A stretch of 41,804 nt of DNA, taken from the NCBI GenBank assembly GCA_013043825.1, contig JABDNM010000028.1, positions 1 through 41,804 on the forward strand. Reading direction: 5' to 3'. A program made the position numbers and the translations under genes. The notes below the pieces were generated by a model. That model did not search any database, was not told the origin of the DNA, and saw only the letters and a list, made by a program, of their open reading frames with translations. Of this stretch, positions 1,716 through 20,420 are shown in pieces (position 1 is the first letter of the stretch; each line of letters begins with the position of its first letter). The stretch comes from Flavobacteriaceae bacterium (lineage in GTDB: Bacteria; Bacteroidota; Bacteroidia; Flavobacteriales; Flavobacteriaceae).

Positions 1716-1967
1716 TTATTGGTTGATTTTATTCTGAATTATTTCCACGGCACTGGAGACAGTATCCATCGCTTCCAACTCAGTGTCTTTGATCTCGATA
1801 TCGAAGGCGTCCTCCACATCCAGGACTATATCAACCAAATGAGAAGAATTTATATTTAACTCTTTTACAAGATGACTTTCGGGGGTAATATTTTCTTCGG
1901 AAACATCTTCGGGAAGGTAGATCTTTATTATGTTCCTTAGCTGATCGTAGATTTCGTCCTGGGTCAT
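1716..1967 (-). CDS. Acyl carrier protein
   Basis: 83 aa; ELNINSSHLVDIVLDVEDAFDIEIKDTELEAMDTVSSAVEII aligns with the ACP helix II-III region; Ser present in a non-canonical NSS motif in place of DSL. Confidence 0.88.
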   Translation of the reverse strand: MTQDEIYDQLRNIIKIYLPEDVSEENITPESHLVKELNINSSHLVDIVLDVEDAFDIEIKDTELEAMDTVSSAVEIIQNKINQ

Positions 1968-1970
1968 TCT

Positions 1971-3287
1971 TTAAATTTTTCTAAAGATAACACACGCGTT
2001 GACATCTCCAAAGCCAAAGCTGGCTTTAACGATTGTTCTAAGATCGACGTCGATTTTTTCCAGAGGAATGCATCGTGGATCGATCCGGTTTGAGATCTCC
2101 GGATGCAGGTCATCACAATTGATATTGGGAAAGACAAAACCATGATGCAGTTGAAGCACCGCCGAAACTGCCTCCATACTCCCGCTGGCTGCCAACCCAT
2201 GACCTACCATGGATTTCAACGAGTTCACGTAGGGAAAATTGGAGCCATCCCGACCCAAAGCTACACACCAGTTTTCGATCTCCACCGGGTCTTTGATCGT
2301 AGCCGTTAAATGACCATTGATATAATCGATCTCCTGGGGTTTTACTTCGGAATGGCTTAAGGCCTTTTTAATGCATCTTTGCACGGCCACACTGTTCGGT
2401 GCGGTCATGGATCCTCCCAATCGCTGCCCCCCGCTGTTTACATGTCCTCCTAATACTTCAGCATAAATGGTGGCGCCGCGCTCTGAAGCACTCTCCATGG
2501 ACTCCAGCATTAACGCTCCTGCTCCACTCCCGGGAACAAAGCCACTAGCGGTTGCGCTTAATGGCCTGGACCCCGATTCGGGTTGGTCATTGTGCTTAAA
2601 GGTGGTGACCTTCATAGCATCGAATCCACCCCACACATAGGGTCCGTCATCACTACAACTACCACATAAGATCTTCCTGGCCGTTCCGGAGGCGATCTGC
2701 TCGTAGGCCATGAATATGGCTTCGGTGCCGGTGGCACAAGCCGATGAATTGGTGGTCACCCGGTTCCCTGCACCAATCTTTCCTCCCAAGTAAGCACTAA
2801 TTCCACTAGCCATGGTCTGGCCCACCGTAGTAGATCCTAGTCGGCGTACTTTCCCCGCATCCAATTTATAAATGGCTTCCCTGAATTTCTCTACTCCGCT
2901 GGTCCCGGTCCCGAAGATCACTCCCAGATCCCAATCTGGCAGCTCAGAAATTTCCTTTTTCTGAATTCCGGCATCCTCGAGGGCGTCCAAACCGGCCATC
3001 ACACCGTATAAAATTCCGTTGCTATTGAAGTTTTTGAGTTCTAAATTTGTGAAGTAGTTGGTTTTCTCGACTTCTGAAACCTTGGGTTTAGCGCCTATCT
3101 GACACGAAAAATTGAGTTTCTGCAGTTCGGGGAAGAATCGTACTCCCGATACTCCATTCTTGATAGAATTTAGGAATTTCGGAACACCTACTCCGTTGGG
3201 AGATACTATTCCTAATCCTGTGATCACCACTCGGTTCTTCAAATCCTTTACTATTTTTTGAGCATTCCGGAAATCGTTCCCCTGCAA
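1971..3287 (-). CDS. Beta-ketoacyl-ACP synthase (FabF-like)
   Basis: RVVITGLGIVSPNG N-terminus; Cys active site region TNSSACATGTEAI; His motifs INGHLTATIKDP and SLKSMVGHGLAASG. The 3287 start is a TTG; no ATG is available near the N-terminus, so the true start may be the TTG at about 3242. Confidence 0.92.
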   Translation of the reverse strand: MQGNDFRNAQKIVKDLKNRVVITGLGIVSPNGVGVPKFLNSIKNGVSGVRFFPELQKLNFSCQIGAKPKVSEVEKTNYFTNLELKNFNSNGILYGVMAGLDALEDAGIQKKEISELPDWDLGVIFGTGTSGVEKFREAIYKLDAGKVRRLGSTTVGQTMASGISAYLGGKIGAGNRVTTNSSACATGTEAIFMAYEQIASGTARKILCGSCSDDGPYVWGGFDAMKVTTFKHNDQPESGSRPLSATASGFVPGSGAGALMLESMESASERGATIYAEVLGGHVNSGGQRLGGSMTAPNSVAVQRCIKKALSHSEVKPQEIDYINGHLTATIKDPVEIENWCVALGRDGSNFPYVNSLKSMVGHGLAASGSMEAVSAVLQLHHGFVFPNINCDDLHPEISNRIDPRCIPLEKIDVDLRTIVKASFGFGDVNACVIFRKI

Positions 3288-3691
3288 ATCAATTCGTCAT
3301 TTTCATTCAGCATTTTAACCTTGCATTTCAGTTTACCAAATCGAAAGTATTCCTTTTCGGAATGTACCCATACTGTCTCGCCGGGGAGCACTGGCAGCTG
3401 AAAATCGACTTCACTACTTACCAAAGCGATCTTCGATTGGGCAGAAAGTCCGTCGATCAATCGAATCCCCAGGCATACAACACCAATTTGGGCCATACAT
3501 TCAGTTAGGATTACTCCTGGTGTGACAGGGCGACCTGTGAAATGTCCTTTGTAAAAGTACTCATCCTTTTTAAACGTATAAGAACCCACAATATGGTCGT
3601 CACTGATCTCCTGTAACGTATCGACGAATAAAAACGGTTTGCCGTAGGGCAATTGTGCTATGATCTCTGGAAAAGTCATGGCTCTCTTCAT
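3251..3691 (-). CDS. 3-hydroxyacyl-ACP dehydratase, FabZ/hotdog-like
   Basis: LPYGKPFLFVDTLQEI and KGHFTGRPVTPGVILTECMAQIG match the FabZ/FabA hotdog signature with the catalytic His and Glu retained. Confidence 0.9.
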   Translation of the reverse strand: MKRAMTFPEIIAQLPYGKPFLFVDTLQEISDDHIVGSYTFKKDEYFYKGHFTGRPVTPGVILTECMAQIGVVCLGIRLIDGLSAQSKIALVSSEVDFQLPVLPGETVWVHSEKEYFRFGKLKCKVKMLNENDELICRGTISGMLKK

Positions 3692-4467
3692 TAACGAATG
3701 CTTTCACCTCCATCTACCGGGATCACTGCGCCATTGATCCATGCGGCTTCCTCTTTAGTGAGTAAATAAACCGCATTGGCCACGTCTTCGGGCCGCGTTA
3801 ACCGATGAAAAGGGTTTCTTTTTTCAGTGAATTGGGCAACTTGTTCGCTCCCAGGTATGCGATTGAAAGAAATAGTTCGCGTCACACCTGCCTGAATGCA
3901 GTTTGAGCGAATGCCCAATGGTGCCAATTCCAATGCCATTTGTCGCATAAGAGATTCCAAAGTTGCTTTGGCTGCCGAGACTGCCCCATAGTACTTCAGC
4001 GCTTTCTTATTGCCTTCACTTGTAAAAGCGAGGTTACGAGCATCTTTAGCAAACAGTCCGGCCTTTATGAAAGCCTGGGTCCATTCCAACCAGGAAGTGC
4101 CCATAGCACGGATGGTGAGCAAAAAATCTTCCTGATCAAGTGCTTCATCATTTTCGGCATATAACGGTTTTACACTTCCCTTGGCTATGCTGTGTAATAA
4201 TAAACTAACCGATCCCTGCGGTATTGCAGCGATCACTTCCTTTTGTGTTTCAATCTTGAGAAGGTCCATATTGAAGGTCTTCAATTCTACACCAAGATCA
4301 CGCAGGTCATTAAATGCATTTTCAAGCTTTGAAACATCCGATTTTCGATCACGATGTACGATGCAGATATTCATCCCATGGGAAGCTAATTTCCTTGCGC
4401 TCGCAAAGCCCAATCCCTGGCTGCCTCCCAAAATAACGGCCCAACTATTTTTAAATTCGTCCTTCAT
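3691..4467 (-). CDS. SDR oxidoreductase, FabI-like enoyl-ACP reductase
   Basis: Rossmann motif ILGGSQGLGFASARKLA; LLLHSIAKGS; Yx6K spacing (YGAVSAAKATLESLMRQMALELAPLGIRSNCI) characteristic of FabI rather than FabG. Confidence 0.82.
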   Translation of the reverse strand: MKDEFKNSWAVILGGSQGLGFASARKLASHGMNICIVHRDRKSDVSKLENAFNDLRDLGVELKTFNMDLLKIETQKEVIAAIPQGSVSLLLHSIAKGSVKPLYAENDEALDQEDFLLTIRAMGTSWLEWTQAFIKAGLFAKDARNLAFTSEGNKKALKYYGAVSAAKATLESLMRQMALELAPLGIRSNCIQAGVTRTISFNRIPGSEQVAQFTEKRNPFHRLTRPEDVANAVYLLTKEEAAWINGAVIPVDGGESIR

Positions 4468-5519
4468 TAAAATTCAATTAAAACACGCTGAGCAGAAAAA
4501 CCGGGCCCGAAACTCAGCATCAGGCCTAGCTCACCGCTAGGAATATTCTTATCCATAAATTGCTCCAATACATAGAGAATGGTAGCACTACTCATATTAC
4601 CATACAATTTAAGCACTTCTTTGGTATCATCGATATTCTTGCCAAGATCACCAAAAAGGTCTTCTACCGTTTGTACGATCTTTTTTCCCCCTGGATGGAA
4701 GATAAGATGGTCCACTTCTTCGATCGATAAATTATTTCTTGCGAGGAACGGATGAACGATCTCCGGAAAATGATGTGCGATCTTCTCTGGAACCTCTTTA
4801 TCCAGGATCATTTGCAAACCGGTATTGACCAGCTTAAAGCCCATCATGGAAGTGGAATCATAAAAATGATACATGGCTTCGTCCAGGATCTTCGGCCCCG
4901 GGGCATCCTCTTCCGAAGATAGTAAAACACAGGCTGCGCCATCTCCGAAAATCGCCGCGCTGACTATATTTACCATGGAAAAATCGTTCAATTGAAAGGT
5001 TGCTGTGGGAGATTCCAAGGCGATCACCGCAGCTCGTTTTCCGGGATTGGCCTTTAAAAAATTCCGAGCATAAATAACTCCCGACACCCCGGCGGCACAA
5101 CCCATTTCAGTTACGGGAAGACGCACTACATCTTGGCGCATTTTCAGTTCGTTGATGAGATAGGCATCAACGGAAGGGATCATGATCCCTGTACAGCTAA
5201 CGGTTATGAGAAAGTCAATATCGCTTGGTTGCCAATTCACTTTATCCAGCGCTTTTTCCAGACATTTTTGCCCCAGCACCGTCATCTCTTTCACGTATAC
5301 GTCATTTCTTTCCTCAAAAGTAGAATTCAAAAAAACATCCTGTGCATCCATAATCGAATACCTGCGATCCACCCCGGCTCCCTCAAATATCTTGATCACT
5401 TTTCGCCTGAAACGGTCCTCCTGCCCACTCAACCAGGTATCTACATAGGGAATGATCTCACTAATATCACGAGTATAGGGAGGTAATTGCTTGGCCGTTG
5501 CTGTAATATGTACGTTCAT
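4467..5519 (-). CDS. Type III polyketide synthase (chalcone/stilbene synthase superfamily)
   Basis: Catalytic Cys in VTEMGCAAGVSG, His in LIFHPGGKKIV, Asn in YGNMSSATILY, C-terminal LSFGPGFSAQRVLIEF. ATG at 5517-5519 (MNVHITATAKQLPPYTRD), overlapping the upstream stop as ATGA; the longer ORF start at 5558 is probably not used. Confidence 0.93.
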   Translation of the reverse strand: MNVHITATAKQLPPYTRDISEIIPYVDTWLSGQEDRFRRKVIKIFEGAGVDRRYSIMDAQDVFLNSTFEERNDVYVKEMTVLGQKCLEKALDKVNWQPSDIDFLITVSCTGIMIPSVDAYLINELKMRQDVVRLPVTEMGCAAGVSGVIYARNFLKANPGKRAAVIALESPTATFQLNDFSMVNIVSAAIFGDGAACVLLSSEEDAPGPKILDEAMYHFYDSTSMMGFKLVNTGLQMILDKEVPEKIAHHFPEIVHPFLARNNLSIEEVDHLIFHPGGKKIVQTVEDLFGDLGKNIDDTKEVLKLYGNMSSATILYVLEQFMDKNIPSGELGLMLSFGPGFSAQRVLIEF

Positions 5520-6226
5520 TTTTTGATGATCCATTGATACCTGAAGGCCCATTTCCATTTAATACGATGACTACCTTCCAACCCGGAAGCTAATTTTTCC
5601 AGTTCATGCCTTCTGAAGCCCCGTGCCACAGAGACCAGGCCGTCGTGTCGAGCCGTTTTGGTCTTCACGAAAAAAGCACTGAAAATTCGGAATAAATTGA
5701 ACGCCCAAACGCTTCTATGCAGGTCGTTAATGATTATCCCGGTACTACATTGAGCCCAGACCCTGCTTAAAATTTGCTCTATTTCTTTCTCAGGAAAATG
5801 ATGCAAAAAAAGTGAAAACACTGCGATGTCATGCTTGGGGATAGGTTCTTTTTCATCTAGCACATTAACCGCTTTAAAGTTAATGTTTTTAATTCCTTCG
5901 GAACGCTCTTCGGCTTCCTTTATGATGTGGATATTGGCATCAAGTCCCATAAGATTAAACTCGTAGTTGTTCCGTTTACCCCAAAAATAACATCGCCGAA
6001 GGGTCTCTCCATCTCCGCATCCCACATCCACTATCGAGGTAGTCGGTTTTCCCATTCGTTCTTTCATTAAATAGCCTAAGCCATTGAGAGTGATCCGGTT
6101 TCCGCCCAGGAAACGATTTACTTTTGAAAGGTCAACAAGGAGTTGCTCCATTTCAGGGCCGTGGAACGTGAGATCATCCATGATCTCCTTCTCTTCGGAA
6201 CGATATGTTGAAGAAAATTGGATCAT
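5516..6226 (-). CDS. Class I SAM-dependent methyltransferase
   Basis: SIVDVGCGDGETLRRCYFWGKRNN...LMGLDANIHII...DIAVFSLFLHHFPEKEIEQIL: SAM-binding motifs I-III. Confidence 0.9.
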   Translation of the reverse strand: MIQFSSTYRSEEKEIMDDLTFHGPEMEQLLVDLSKVNRFLGGNRITLNGLGYLMKERMGKPTTSIVDVGCGDGETLRRCYFWGKRNNYEFNLMGLDANIHIIKEAEERSEGIKNINFKAVNVLDEKEPIPKHDIAVFSLFLHHFPEKEIEQILSRVWAQCSTGIIINDLHRSVWAFNLFRIFSAFFVKTKTARHDGLVSVARGFRRHELEKLASGLEGSHRIKWKWAFRYQWIIKK

Positions 6227-7350
6227 ATCACAACATCTCCGTGCGTTTTACTAATTATTTTAGGAATCACAGACGGGAAGATCCGGGCAATCTTCATACC
6301 CATATTTGCCGTGGCCGGATTTAAAAATAATCGCTGGATCATCCTCCCGGTCTGTATTCTCCTGGAAAAAGTCGCTTCCCATTTCAGGCGGTAATTCCGC
6401 TCAAGATCGACTCGCCGAAAATTGGGTTTATCTACGCTTTCGAGGAATAGATCACAAAACAGTTTTGCTGCGTGAATAGCCATGGCCATCCCATTTCCGC
6501 AAAGCGGATGAATGAGACCTGCGCTGTCTCCAATCATATAAATATGGCCCTCTACGGCTTGCTTCCGCTCGAAGGAGATCTGTGCAATTGTGAGAGGTTT
6601 TGGAAATACCGATACTGCCTTTGAAAAGAATTGTCGCAAATGCGGATTCTGGATTAGAACCTTTTCCTTGAAGGCTTTAGGACTTCCAGCCTTCCTAAAC
6701 GAGCTGTAGGTAGCAAGATAGCATGCGTTTATCAATCCTGTTTCTACTTGAGATAGACCGCAGTAGCCACCGCGAAAATTATGCAGTGCCACAAGATCAC
6801 CGGGAAACTCATATTCGTAATGGGCCTTCACTCCCAGCCAGGGAGATTTTTGGCGAATAAATTTTCGTTTTAAAGTAACGTCCAACAAGGATCGTTTTCC
6901 AAAAGCACCGACGACAAACTTACTTCGGTATTTATTTTTTTCCACGGTACTTACAGTAAACTCGTTCTGTAAAAAATTAAGGTCCTCAACCGTCTCGAAA
7001 TGTACCTTGGCTCGTTCACTCAACTTCTCGTATAACAAGTTGTCCAAGGCATAACGTGATATGCCGAAGCCTCCCAGGGGCAACTTCGAACGTATAGTTT
7101 TTCCCTCGATGGAACTCACTTCGAAACGATCGATCGAAACGGCTCCTCTTTCGAATGGATCAATACCTAAACTATTTAAATATGGCAAAATCTCATTGGA
7201 AACATATTCGCCGCATACCTTATGATGGGGATAAGGGTTTTTTTCCAATAGCAATACCCGACATCCAACCTTAGAAAGTCGCAAGGCACAGGCTAAGCCG
7301 GCAAGGCCGCCACCAATCACAATGAGATCATAGCTATTTTTAGAATCCAC
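6223..7350 (-). CDS. NAD(P)/FAD-dependent oxidoreductase (geranylgeranyl reductase/flavin monooxygenase-like)
   Basis: N-terminal GxGxxG (VIGGGLAGLACALRLSKVGCRVLLLEK), HHKVCGEYVS, and GDSAGLIHPLCGNGMAMAI second FAD motif. GTG start at 7348-7350. Confidence 0.9.
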   Translation of the reverse strand: MDSKNSYDLIVIGGGLAGLACALRLSKVGCRVLLLEKNPYPHHKVCGEYVSNEILPYLNSLGIDPFERGAVSIDRFEVSSIEGKTIRSKLPLGGFGISRYALDNLLYEKLSERAKVHFETVEDLNFLQNEFTVSTVEKNKYRSKFVVGAFGKRSLLDVTLKRKFIRQKSPWLGVKAHYEYEFPGDLVALHNFRGGYCGLSQVETGLINACYLATYSSFRKAGSPKAFKEKVLIQNPHLRQFFSKAVSVFPKPLTIAQISFERKQAVEGHIYMIGDSAGLIHPLCGNGMAMAIHAAKLFCDLFLESVDKPNFRRVDLERNYRLKWEATFSRRIQTGRMIQRLFLNPATANMGMKIARIFPSVIPKIISKTHGDVVI

Positions 7351-7372: not shown

Positions 7373-7407
7373 TTCAGAAAAAAAAATCCCGGACCAATTG
7401 GCCCGGG
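7373..7407 (-). terminator. Rho-independent terminator downstream of the OmpA-family gene
   Basis: Minus strand reads CCCGGGCCAATTGGTCCGGG (7407-7388, near-perfect hairpin) followed by ATTTTTTTTT. Confidence 0.8.
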
Positions 7408-7430
7408 AATTTATCTAAGATCTGCTCTGT

Positions 7431-17397: not shown

Positions 17398-18579
17398 TTA
17401 TTTTAGATTCTGAAGGATAAAATCAAGTTTCGGATTGACATTATCATTGTTATCGAATGCAAGGTTGCGATACTTAAGGGCATGGGTGAGCCCCATGTCC
17501 TGCCAACGATTCACCAAATCTAGATGTTCGAGTGAAACCTTTCCGAGCTGGAGGAGACTTAGGTCCTCATTGGTTTGGTATCGATCATAGATGCGCTTTA
17601 ACCCGGTTAGATAGAGAAAATCTTTCGTAAAACCCCCTCCCCGGTGAGCACGTAAGGAGATGGAGTATGCTTCTTCCCTGTTCAATTTATATTGGTTATG
17701 CAACAGGTCGAAGGTGTCGCTGAAATCGAAACCTTTCCGAAGACTATCTGCCGCCAACACCCGGTATGAAAGCTCTTTGAGCCGGAATAACGTTAAACAG
17801 CCGCTCATATATTCACTGAAAACAGCAAGTCCTTCCTGGGTCTCCAGGTTATTGGGGAATCCATTATGAAATATTTTCAAGGACTGGTCCATTCCGTTGA
17901 AGGTGGTTACCATATGTACCCCAATTTCGTGATTGGCAAGTACCTTCAACTGGTTTGGGCTAAATCTGTGGTTCTTTTTAAGAATTAGAGTTTGTGTATT
18001 ATTCTGAACCATGGCCGCAGCCGAGATCTTTGTAGAGAACTTTATCGAATAGTTAAAATCGTATTGTTTGGAATATTCTGTAAAATATTCAGCGGCTTGA
18101 TCTACGTTGAAAACAGGAAAGAGTTCCGGATCGTCTTCATCTTCAAAATGGAGAATGAACTGGGCATTTTCCACATCTTTTTCGGTGGGTGTTCCAAAGG
18201 ATTTTAATGCGTTAAAATAGAATTTAGATCCTTTACCAATCGTTTCAATGCACTGAATTAGTCCCGAATAATCGTAGATCACATCGCGGTAAAATGCACG
18301 TGTCTCTTCATCCAAAATACTATCGATATCCTGAGAAAACAAGTCCTGTTGTAGTTTATGAGCATCGAAGTCGATGCGACGGTATTTGAAGTTTGGGTTT
18401 ATGTTGTATTTGGAGCTGAAGAAACTTCGTTTTTCCTGCTCAATATTGACTGGGTTAATATAATTGAGCAGTTCGATTCGCTTGACCAATTTATTCAAAT
18501 TAGAATCAATTCTAAATAAATTTGGATGTTCCACTACAATACTTTCGGGATAGGTCATATTATTTCTTATGGGATGCAT
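17398..18579 (-). CDS. DUF1704 / MATCAP-like metallopeptidase (flavohemoglobin expression-modulating QEGLA motif protein)
   Basis: HExxxH motif NHEIGVHMVTTFNG and downstream ETQEGLAVFSEYMSG. Confidence 0.9.
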   Translation of the reverse strand: MHPIRNNMTYPESIVVEHPNLFRIDSNLNKLVKRIELLNYINPVNIEQEKRSFFSSKYNINPNFKYRRIDFDAHKLQQDLFSQDIDSILDEETRAFYRDVIYDYSGLIQCIETIGKGSKFYFNALKSFGTPTEKDVENAQFILHFEDEDDPELFPVFNVDQAAEYFTEYSKQYDFNYSIKFSTKISAAAMVQNNTQTLILKKNHRFSPNQLKVLANHEIGVHMVTTFNGMDQSLKIFHNGFPNNLETQEGLAVFSEYMSGCLTLFRLKELSYRVLAADSLRKGFDFSDTFDLLHNQYKLNREEAYSISLRAHRGGGFTKDFLYLTGLKRIYDRYQTNEDLSLLQLGKVSLEHLDLVNRWQDMGLTHALKYRNLAFDNNDNVNPKLDFILQNLK

Positions 18580-19402
18580 GAAAGGACTTGGCGTGTTCTT
18601 TCAACTTGGATCGTAGTTGAGTTTCGATGGCTGAAACCACTTCGGGATAAATTATCTGTCCAAGCTCGTCACAATAGATTTTTTTAAACTCGGTGGCCAA
18701 AACTAATGTATTTCGGAAGTTTTTCGTAATAAATTTCAAGAAATAACCATTCCCGTGGAACGTGTTGTTGATCTTGGAGGTACTTTCAATACCGTGCGGC
18801 AGATCCAGTTGCGATAATGAGATTCGCCAGGACTCAACTTCCTTACCAAATCGTTCATTGTCAATATTGGCGGTCCCCAAATTTATCACCGGTACTTCCC
18901 GGTCCCAGCGGCGCCAGTTATAACTATGGATATCGTAAACGACGGCTGCACCATATTTCCCCTCTACCTTTGCAACGAGCGCATGCACAACTTCATAGAA
19001 GCGTGAATGTTTAGCCAGGCTCTCGTTGTGTTGTTTCCTGGTGAGTGGTTTCTTCCAAAGTCGCTTACCCCATGCGTCTTCATAGATGGCGTTTTCCGGA
19101 TCCCGGTTCAAGTCGTATTCGAACCTGCTGTCACATCCGGCGATCACAATAGGATGTGATTTCACAAATTCTTTGGTGGCCGGATCTTCTTCATACCAGC
19201 GATCGTATGCAGAGTGCAGACAATTTTCCCAAAGTTCTTTGCGAAACTGATGCCCATCGTGGACAGCCCCACAGATGTAGGGTACATAATCATCTATCTT
19301 CAGTGTAAATGAATAATCTTGGGAGACGGCTTCAAAGCGTTCCTCATTTTCGATCTTTCGAATGATCTCCAAGTGAGATAATCGCTGCATACTAGGCGTC
19401 AC
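18560..19402 (-). CDS. N-formylglutamate amidohydrolase family protein
   Basis: CGAVHDGHQF, SRFEYDLNRDPENAIYEDAWGKRLW, VVYDIHSYNWRRW..VPVINLGTAN. Confidence 0.88.
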   Translation of the reverse strand: MTPSMQRLSHLEIIRKIENEERFEAVSQDYSFTLKIDDYVPYICGAVHDGHQFRKELWENCLHSAYDRWYEEDPATKEFVKSHPIVIAGCDSRFEYDLNRDPENAIYEDAWGKRLWKKPLTRKQHNESLAKHSRFYEVVHALVAKVEGKYGAAVVYDIHSYNWRRWDREVPVINLGTANIDNERFGKEVESWRISLSQLDLPHGIESTSKINNTFHGNGYFLKFITKNFRNTLVLATEFKKIYCDELGQIIYPEVVSAIETQLRSKLKEHAKSFHASHKK

Positions 19403-20420
19403 TTACAGTTTTTCTCATTTTTTGCCGGCGCTCGAATGCATTGACCTTTTCCTGGACCTTGTCCTCCACAAAGTCGATCACTTGTTCTTGTATTTTGTGC
19501 TTGTAGACCTTATTGATGTAAGTGATCCCACCCGGCGACATCACGTTTACTTCCACCAGCATACCTCCTATTACATCGATCCCTACAAAGTATAATCCGT
19601 CTTTGACTAATTTGGGCCCTATACGCCGGCATAATTCCTTTTCATGCTTGCTTAAAGAATGTTTTTGAACAGATCCCCCTGCACTCACATTGGAGCGATG
19701 ATCTTCATCACCTGGGACGCGTTTCATAGCACCTATGGGCAGTCCGTTCAGCATTAAGATGCGCACATCACCCTGATCGGCTCCCTCAATATAATCCTGA
19801 AGAATCACATAATTGGAAGTACCGTCCTTATTATCGATGTAAAAATCGAGCAAGGAATTAATACTTTTCATGGCTCGTTTTTCAATAAGGATAACCCCGG
19901 ATCCTCCAAATCCGTTCAAGGGTTTCAGGATCATTTTATCCGGGCCTTCCTTGATCACTTTCTTTAGGTAGGACTTGTTCTTGGTAACATGGGTTTTGGG
20001 GATAATCTCATTCTTATCATCTTCAAAAACCGCCGTATACAATTTGTTGTTCGCTCTGCGAATCCCATCCAGATCATTCATAATAAATACATCGTCCTTG
20101 ACGCTGTCCAGGAAATTGAGCATGATCATATCCAGGGGCGGGTTTGAACGTAGAATTATAGCGTCAAATCCTGCCAGGGGTAACATTTCATCGTAGAATT
20201 CGGCTCGGTTATGAAACGACTTGAGATTGTTCGATATCTTATCGGCTCGCTTCAGGCACTTACAAAAGGCAAATGCAACACTATCCCGAATCGTAAGATT
20301 AGCCGGGGTTGTTGTTGCCAAGCCATGCCCTCGACGGGCAAACTCCTGGATGAGAGCAAGGGTAGAGTCGTTTTCCGGATCCATTTCTTCCCATGGATAC
20401 ATGATAAAACAAACATTCAT
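19392..20420 (-). CDS. Glutathione synthetase-like ATP-grasp protein
   Basis: ILRSNPPLDM, KPLNGFGGSGVILIEK, VEVNVMSPGGITYIN: GshB-family ATP-grasp motifs. Confidence 0.88.
   Translation of the reverse strand: MNVCFIMYPWEEMDPENDSTLALIQEFARRGHGLATTTPANLTIRDSVAFAFCKCLKRADKISNNLKSFHNRAEFYDEMLPLAGFDAIILRSNPPLDMIMLNFLDSVKDDVFIMNDLDGIRRANNKLYTAVFEDDKNEIIPKTHVTKNKSYLKKVIKEGPDKMILKPLNGFGGSGVILIEKRAMKSINSLLDFYIDNKDGTSNYVILQDYIEGADQGDVRILMLNGLPIGAMKRVPGDEDHRSNVSAGGSVQKHSLSKHEKELCRRIGPKLVKDGLYFVGIDVIGGMLVEVNVMSPGGITYINKVYKHKIQEQVIDFVEDKVQEKVNAFERRQKMRKTVSDA

Follow-up and report, generated by a model that had tools for sequence, protein, structure and literature searches.

Described type III polyketide synthase operons and the flavobacterial locus

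A type III polyketide synthase (T3PKS), a methyltransferase (MT) and a flavin hydroxylase share one operon in srsABC of Streptomyces griseus and in the polyketide-quinone operons of Mycobacterium smegmatis and Streptomyces; in these srs/pkq systems an alkylresorcinol is converted to a methylated alkyl quinone (PMC9927152). We analyzed an operon with the same three functions on a stretch of 41,804 nucleotides from a Flavobacteriaceae bacterium (assembly GCA_013043825.1, contig JABDNM010000028.1; hereafter, the window), a contig of a metagenome-assembled genome (MAG) of 2.59 Mb that is 82.5% complete, with 4.3% contamination. Seven genes lie on the minus strand, from 7350 to 1716, in the order flavin adenine dinucleotide (FAD)-dependent oxidoreductase, MT, T3PKS, enoyl reductase (ER), dehydratase (DH), ketosynthase (KS) and acyl carrier protein (ACP). 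From this gene content, we consider it fairly probable that a ring-making core of T3PKS, MT and flavoprotein is supplied with chains by a partial type II fatty acid synthase (FAS) of its own, and that the product would be a methylated, oxidized alkyl-phenol or quinone lipid. The srs and pkq operons differ in carrying no dedicated FAS genes, and the likeness to SrsB/SrsC and PkqB/PkqC is one of gene functions.

Trios of MT, flavoprotein and T3PKS are also found in planctomycetes and in the cyanobacterial hierridin cluster hidABC. Such T3PKSs give alkylresorcinols, which are C-methylated when MT and flavoprotein are present; with the planctomycete enzymes, a single C-methylation was obtained (PMC10896814). 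The MT and flavoprotein of the planctomycete Paludisphaera are detectable homologs of those in the operon (28% and 25%), whereas its T3PKS, 27% identical, belongs to another clade and is accompanied by no KS, DH, ER or ACP. The srs-like logic of T3PKS, MT and flavoprotein, recognized in an original prediction made from the sequence of this locus, is supported by MT and flavoprotein homologs adjoining T3PKSs in several phyla, with one such trio tested (PMC10896814).

The second half of the operon resembles a different kind of system. In the ars operon of Azotobacter, dedicated fatty acid machinery likewise lies beside the T3PKS genes and acyl-ACP is handed to the T3PKS; however, ArsA and ArsD are type I multidomain FAS proteins that feed ArsB and ArsC, whereas the operon analyzed here encodes separate type II proteins. 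No type I FAS subunits were found beside the T3PKS, and KS, DH, ER and ACP are all stand-alone proteins. The parallel with ars in the original prediction holds insofar as FAS-like enzymes are dedicated to a T3PKS, but ars itself is an analogy only, its feeder being a type I FAS, and we know of no MT/FAD trio associated with it. Germicidin synthase of Streptomyces coelicolor is a T3PKS able to accept acyl groups from ACP; to our knowledge, it has no link to an operon-borne FAS set. CylI of the cylindrocyclophane pathway (8yw7, 8yst), the second-nearest solved structure, is a T3PKS that is fed by an upstream assembly line, a type I PKS, and makes a resorcinol; no MT/FAD pair is known to us for this system. 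With regard to the acyl donors, ArsB and ArsC take acyl groups from ArsA, and Gcs and SCO7671 take them from acyl-ACP (PMC6274091).

Conservation of the operon and recurrence of the tailoring trio

The seven genes are tightly packed. ATGA forms the junction of flavoprotein stop and MT start, and that of MT stop and T3PKS start; TAATG joins T3PKS to ER and ER to DH; the gap between DH and KS is 8 nt if KS starts at TTG 3242, and the gap between KS and ACP is 3 nt. The original prediction had described the same seven consecutive genes, order, enzyme families and junctions, with an overlap or near-overlap where the 8-nt gap lies; the type of the reductase had to be revised, from FabI-like to nearest FabL, its best NCBIfam model (130 bits, under the cut-off of 328).

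To assess conservation, we used a synteny sample of 80 named loci from one scan, with genera including Aequorivita, Psychroserpens, Gelidibacter, Lacinutrix, Winogradskyella, Ulvibacter, Tenacibaculum and Flavobacterium. The order flavoprotein, MT, T3PKS, ER, DH, KS, ACP is kept throughout, and the median gaps lie between -4 and 7 nt. The full set of seven genes is present in 64 loci, only ER is absent in 7, and most of the remaining 9 are cut by contig ends. The single functional unit that had been predicted is supported by this synteny, which goes beyond chance; the linkage extends across dozens of genera and to two further families. In an even draw of Bacteroidota genomes, the T3PKS subfamily (64-85% identity) was detected in 30 of 41 other Flavobacteriaceae genomes versus 3 of ~354 other Bacteroidota (counted from the hit table), and the remaining Bacteroidota T3PKS matches all have an identity of ~36% or less. 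The three outside carriers belong to two other families of the class, and their set includes KS and ACP; these occurrences look like transfer of the operon as a unit.

The KS tracks the T3PKS across genomes. No KS orthologue was found in 8 genomes that lack the operon T3PKS (best matches 31-35%, the level of FabF), and it was present in the control genome. This bears on a different reading, which we regard as very improbable, namely, that the FAS-like genes make a separate specialized lipid and share no more than a transcript with the T3PKS trio. Two loci would fit it: in L123 (Subsaximicrobium), KS is displaced from the operon yet kept (83%), and L124 consists of the trio and ER, with no KS orthologue found in that genome, a MAG. 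However, every tested genome with the KS orthologue also has the T3PKS, the genes are linked across this wide range of genera and families, and sphingomonads have attached an unrelated KS and ACP to the same trio.

The trio itself is more widespread than the operon. The MT, and to a weaker degree the flavoprotein, has homologs that adjoin T3PKSs on plasmids of Falsirhodobacter, Paracoccus, Roseomonas, Sphingobium, Novosphingobium, Deinococcus, Psychrobacter and the planctomycete Paludisphaera. The Sphingobium and Novosphingobium operons (L185, L189) share with the window the functional set of ACP, KS, T3PKS, MT and flavoprotein, but they contain no DH or ER, their T3PKS falls inside the MT/FAD-linked clade, and their KS shares only 26% identity with that of the window and is nearer to ordinary FabF. 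As this KS is non-orthologous, acyl-extending enzymes joined the trio at least twice, and such repeated recruitment is the best support, albeit indirect, that KS and ACP serve the T3PKS.

T3PKS, MT and flavoprotein also occur together in all 13 T3PKS loci from other Bacteroidia, several of the flavoproteins being 39-45% identical to that of the window. A UbiA-family gene (PF01040) lies beside the trio in 10 of these loci (L159, L174, L205, L206, L208, L210, L211, L213, L214, L215), whereas no KS or ACP of the tested kinds was found in any of the 13; this combination suggests a prenylated polyketide ring. We know of no described system with a UbiA-linked trio of this type. No T3PKS is annotated beside the flavoprotein homologs (37-38%) of Bernardetia and Hymenobacter plasmids, and therefore the flavoprotein alone is no marker of the pathway. 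On the Hymenobacter plasmid (L182:5131-10140), the homolog (38%) adjoins an isonitrile synthase and a TauD-type dioxygenase.

Catalytic residues, proposed pathway and alternatives

Catalytic motifs, compared in 73-81 aligned family sequences (the number differing by gene), are intact. The Y-x6-K spacing typical of FabI/FabL enoyl reductases and the HSxAxG motif are present in 73 of 73 ER sequences; a polyene reading, with this short-chain dehydrogenase/reductase (SDR) as a ketoreductase, was ruled out because none has Y-x3-K instead. The His/Glu motif of DH is found in all 77 sequences, and the KS residues Cys-His-Lys-His are conserved across the aligned relatives. In ACP, NSA or NSS replaces the canonical DSL at the phosphopantetheine serine in 75 of 75 sequences (the window and 74 relatives), a site that may call for a special phosphopantetheinyl transferase (PPTase). 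The host's own FabF, which lies together with its ACP on a different contig, shares only 32-34% identity with the operon KS; the latter is thus a separate, specialized paralogue. The ER state changes 6 times on the tree, with ER as the sole absentee in 7 of 80 loci, and three complete Flavobacterium genomes have no ER orthologue; ER is therefore dispensable, and a host enoyl reductase probably covers for it. A ketosynthase III of the DarB type, as in the flexirubin/dialkylresorcinol DarAB systems, was not found (DarB model 21.7 bits versus a cut-off of 550).

The MT is of the Methyltransf_25 type by profile search. The predicted fold of the flavoprotein (predicted local distance difference test, pLDDT, 87) is that of a class A flavin monooxygenase; its best PDB folds are flavin monooxygenases and halogenases, with matches including 3-hydroxybenzoate 6-hydroxylase, UbiI and flavin-dependent halogenases. 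A CGE[YF]xS motif is present in 75 of 75 aligned sequences, and a role as a flavin-dependent halogenase was ruled out, as WxWxIP occurs in none of the 75. By analogy with the S. griseus operon, whose hydroxylase is reported to hydroxylate the ring (PMC9927152), the flavoprotein would most likely do the same. In the T3PKS, the triad Cys154, His288 and Asn321, along with Cys122, Pro184, Phe241 and Met250 (363-aa numbering), is invariant in 81 sequences.

The pathway that we propose would run as follows. ACP, primed by a PPTase, would bear the growing acyl chain, which KS would lengthen with malonyl-ACP; host FabG would reduce the ketone, the operon DH would dehydrate, and the operon ER or a host enoyl reductase would saturate. 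The T3PKS would receive the acyl chain, probably directly from ACP, add ~3 malonyl units and close an alkylresorcinol-type ring. The MT would then put a carbon-bound methyl on the product and the flavoprotein would hydroxylate the ring, which can oxidize to a quinone, so that a methylated alkyl hydroxyquinol or quinone would result. Here we infer the direction of flow, the acyl-ACP transfer, the ring type and the tailoring order, as well as any redox or membrane role.

Chain first and ring second is the simplest order, because T3PKSs are known to accept acyl groups from ACPs (PMC6274091) and because the operon encodes no enzyme that could attach an aromatic acid to ACP. The reverse flow, which we consider unlikely, would have the T3PKS convert malonyl-CoA to a small aromatic acid or thioester, in a DpgA- or THNS-like reaction, to be loaded on ACP and elongated by KS, DH and ER to an aryl-alkyl lipid, as in aryl polyene systems. 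DpgA is indeed the best NCBIfam match of the T3PKS (169 bits, under the cut-off of 425), the cysteine in its SCTG motif is common to THNS, and a UbiA-type gene beside the trio in other Bacteroidia fits a small ring that is tailed later. Conversely, neither a ligase, an acyltransferase or a thioesterase for ACP loading nor DpgBCD is present in the operon, and the known cooperation between T3PKS and ACP goes from acyl-ACP to T3PKS (PMC6274091).

Several observations weigh against the proposed pathway. No ketoreductase is among the seven genes, which makes the FAS a partial one that has to rely on the host's FabG and malonyl transfer. Linked DH, KS and ACP are absent from 2 of the 80 loci, and one of these genomes has no orthologous KS. 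Even for the planctomycete trio that was tested, the role of the flavoprotein was left unsettled (PMC10896814). As to the ring, the nearest solved T3PKS by sequence (177 bits) and by fold (template modeling score 0.86-0.88; model pLDDT 83), ahead of CylI, is PKS11, an alkylpyrone synthase. The operon T3PKS is 25-35% identical to enzymes linked to an ICMT-family methyltransferase versus 22-30% to MT/FAD-linked ones; furthermore, Pro184 and Phe241 are unique to its clade among the groups compared, which makes product transfer from relatives unsafe.

If the enzyme is an alkylpyrone synthase, the FAS-made chain would be extended two to three times and lactonized, the MT would methylate the pyrone, and the flavoprotein would oxidize the chain or the ring. 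We give this reading a minor but appreciable weight. Besides PKS11, it is favored by the best tree. There, the operon T3PKSs form their own deep clade, strongly supported and long-branched, which falls with the ICMT/PKS11 enzymes at a non-significant support of 78. However, the partners are the MT/FAD pair of alkylresorcinol-type systems and not the ICMT partner of PKS11-side enzymes; an ICMT-family methyltransferase, the mark of BpsAB-type alkylpyrone systems, was not found beside the operon T3PKS and occurs beside other T3PKSs only. In the active site, Cys122 and Met250 agree with MT/FAD-linked T3PKSs (13 of 13 and 12 of 13, respectively) and not with ICMT-linked ones (0 of 18). Grouping of the operon clade with MT/FAD-linked T3PKSs was not rejected by the approximately unbiased (AU) test (p 0.47); thus, given the tree placement, the ring chemistry is not readable from descent. 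The same test led us to drop the idea of a swapped alkylpyrone-type enzyme, which had come from a quick tree with a 99% split from the MT/FAD group. The ArsB Trp/ArsC Gly rule for ring type, with Phe241 as the presumed site from its 9-residue spacing to Met, was set aside, because Trp is present in both ICMT-linked and MT/FAD-linked relatives.

Locus features, accompanying genes and significance

Table 1. Genes and signals of the operon in the window, with example features from other loci (positions preceded by a locus number).
Feature	Position	Strand	Evidence
FAD-dependent oxidoreductase, GTG start, 375 aa	6223..7350	-	PF01494 47 bits; GG-red-SF 91 bits, below cut-off
S-adenosylmethionine (SAM)-dependent MT, 236 aa	5516..6226	-	PF13649 35 bits; NF004851 107.8 bits, below cut-off 243
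T3PKS, 350 aa from ATG 5519, open reading frame (ORF) open to 5558	4467..5519	-	PF00195/PF02797
Enoyl-ACP-reductase-like SDR (ER), FabL type	3691..4467	-	PF13561 131 bits; FabL best NCBIfam
FabZ-like 3-hydroxyacyl-ACP dehydratase (DH)	3251..3691	-	PF07977 51 bits
FabF/FabB-type KS, likely TTG start 3242	1971..3242	-	PF00109/PF02801
ACP	1716..1967	-	PF00550 26 bits
Intrinsic terminator of upstream OmpA-like gene	7387..7408	-	9-pair stem, 7 GC, T run; region's strongest
Example PPTase gene after ACP	L127:12820-13392
Example YceI gene before flavoprotein gene	L102:6656-7195
Sphingomonad plasmid operons ACP, KS, T3PKS, MT, FAD	L185:3076-8059, L189:2719-7038

ATG 5519, and not 5558, is the most likely start of the T3PKS, because relatives carry stops within the extra 13 codons of the longer ORF; for KS, the most likely start is TTG 3242 and not the long-ORF start at 3287. 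The transcription unit probably begins just upstream of 7350, since the terminator at 7408-7387 closes the OmpA gene. Promoter-like matches around the operon showed no excess over shuffled sequence. A TerC gene begins 13 nt past ACP and may be co-transcribed. Elsewhere in the window, at 17401-20420 on the minus strand, a three-gene block encodes a protein with a MATCAP-type peptidase domain (PF08014), an N-formylglutamate amidohydrolase-like protein and a glutathione synthetase.

Two genes travel with the operon in relatives. Directly after ACP, 49 of the 73 loci that could be assessed have a PPTase gene (PF01648), whose presence changes once on the tree, and a gene for a YceI lipid-binding protein (PF04264) lies just upstream of the flavoprotein gene in 24 of 74. 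In the clade of the window, neither is present at the operon; most relatives outside it have the attached PPTase. Elsewhere in the genome of the window, there are one PPTase-family match and three YceI matches. Other additions are an extra gene between ER and DH in three Gelidibacter operons (L096, L112, L118), with DUF218/hemopexin domains in L112, and a PhyH-type dioxygenase gene in L107.

T3PKS regions make up 9-11% of biosynthetic clusters in Flavobacteriaceae surveys (PMC7440613, PMC10734526), with ~11% in 2,680 genomes of Flavobacteriaceae and relatives (PMC10734526); therefore, the T3PKS itself is no discovery. Our searches of the open-access literature found only cluster counts, and no account of the linked FAS set, the conserved order, the PPTase and YceI additions, the UbiA counterpart or a product, in agreement with the original statement that no characterized product is known for this architecture in Bacteroidota. 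The genomes sampled suggest that the operon is a common form of the Flavobacteriaceae T3PKS regions, and an operon that spans the family and brings its own fatty acid module points to a lipid with a physiological role more than to a sporadic antibiotic.

Similar alkyl quinones serve as alternative electron carriers in mycobacteria and are proposed to do so in Streptomyces (PMC9927152). Menaquinone MK-6 is the sole or major quinone reported in related Flavobacteriaceae (PMC10608841, PMC12843772); chemotaxonomy assays target isoprenoid quinones in standard culture, and another lipid could be missed. More tentatively, the Bacteroidota might make lipoquinone-like redox lipids by a polyketide route in which one ring core of T3PKS, MT and flavoprotein receives interchangeable tails, a fatty one from a dedicated type II FAS in Flavobacteriaceae or a prenyl one from a UbiA-type enzyme in other Bacteroidia. 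YceI-type carriers would move the product, which would act as an additional electron carrier or membrane antioxidant beside MK-6. The product is testable, as culturable strains exist in Aequorivita, Psychroserpens, Gelidibacter and Flavobacterium. If it is a quinone, the idea of polyketide quinones, so far reported from Actinobacteria, would extend to a major marine group that is described as reliant on MK-6.

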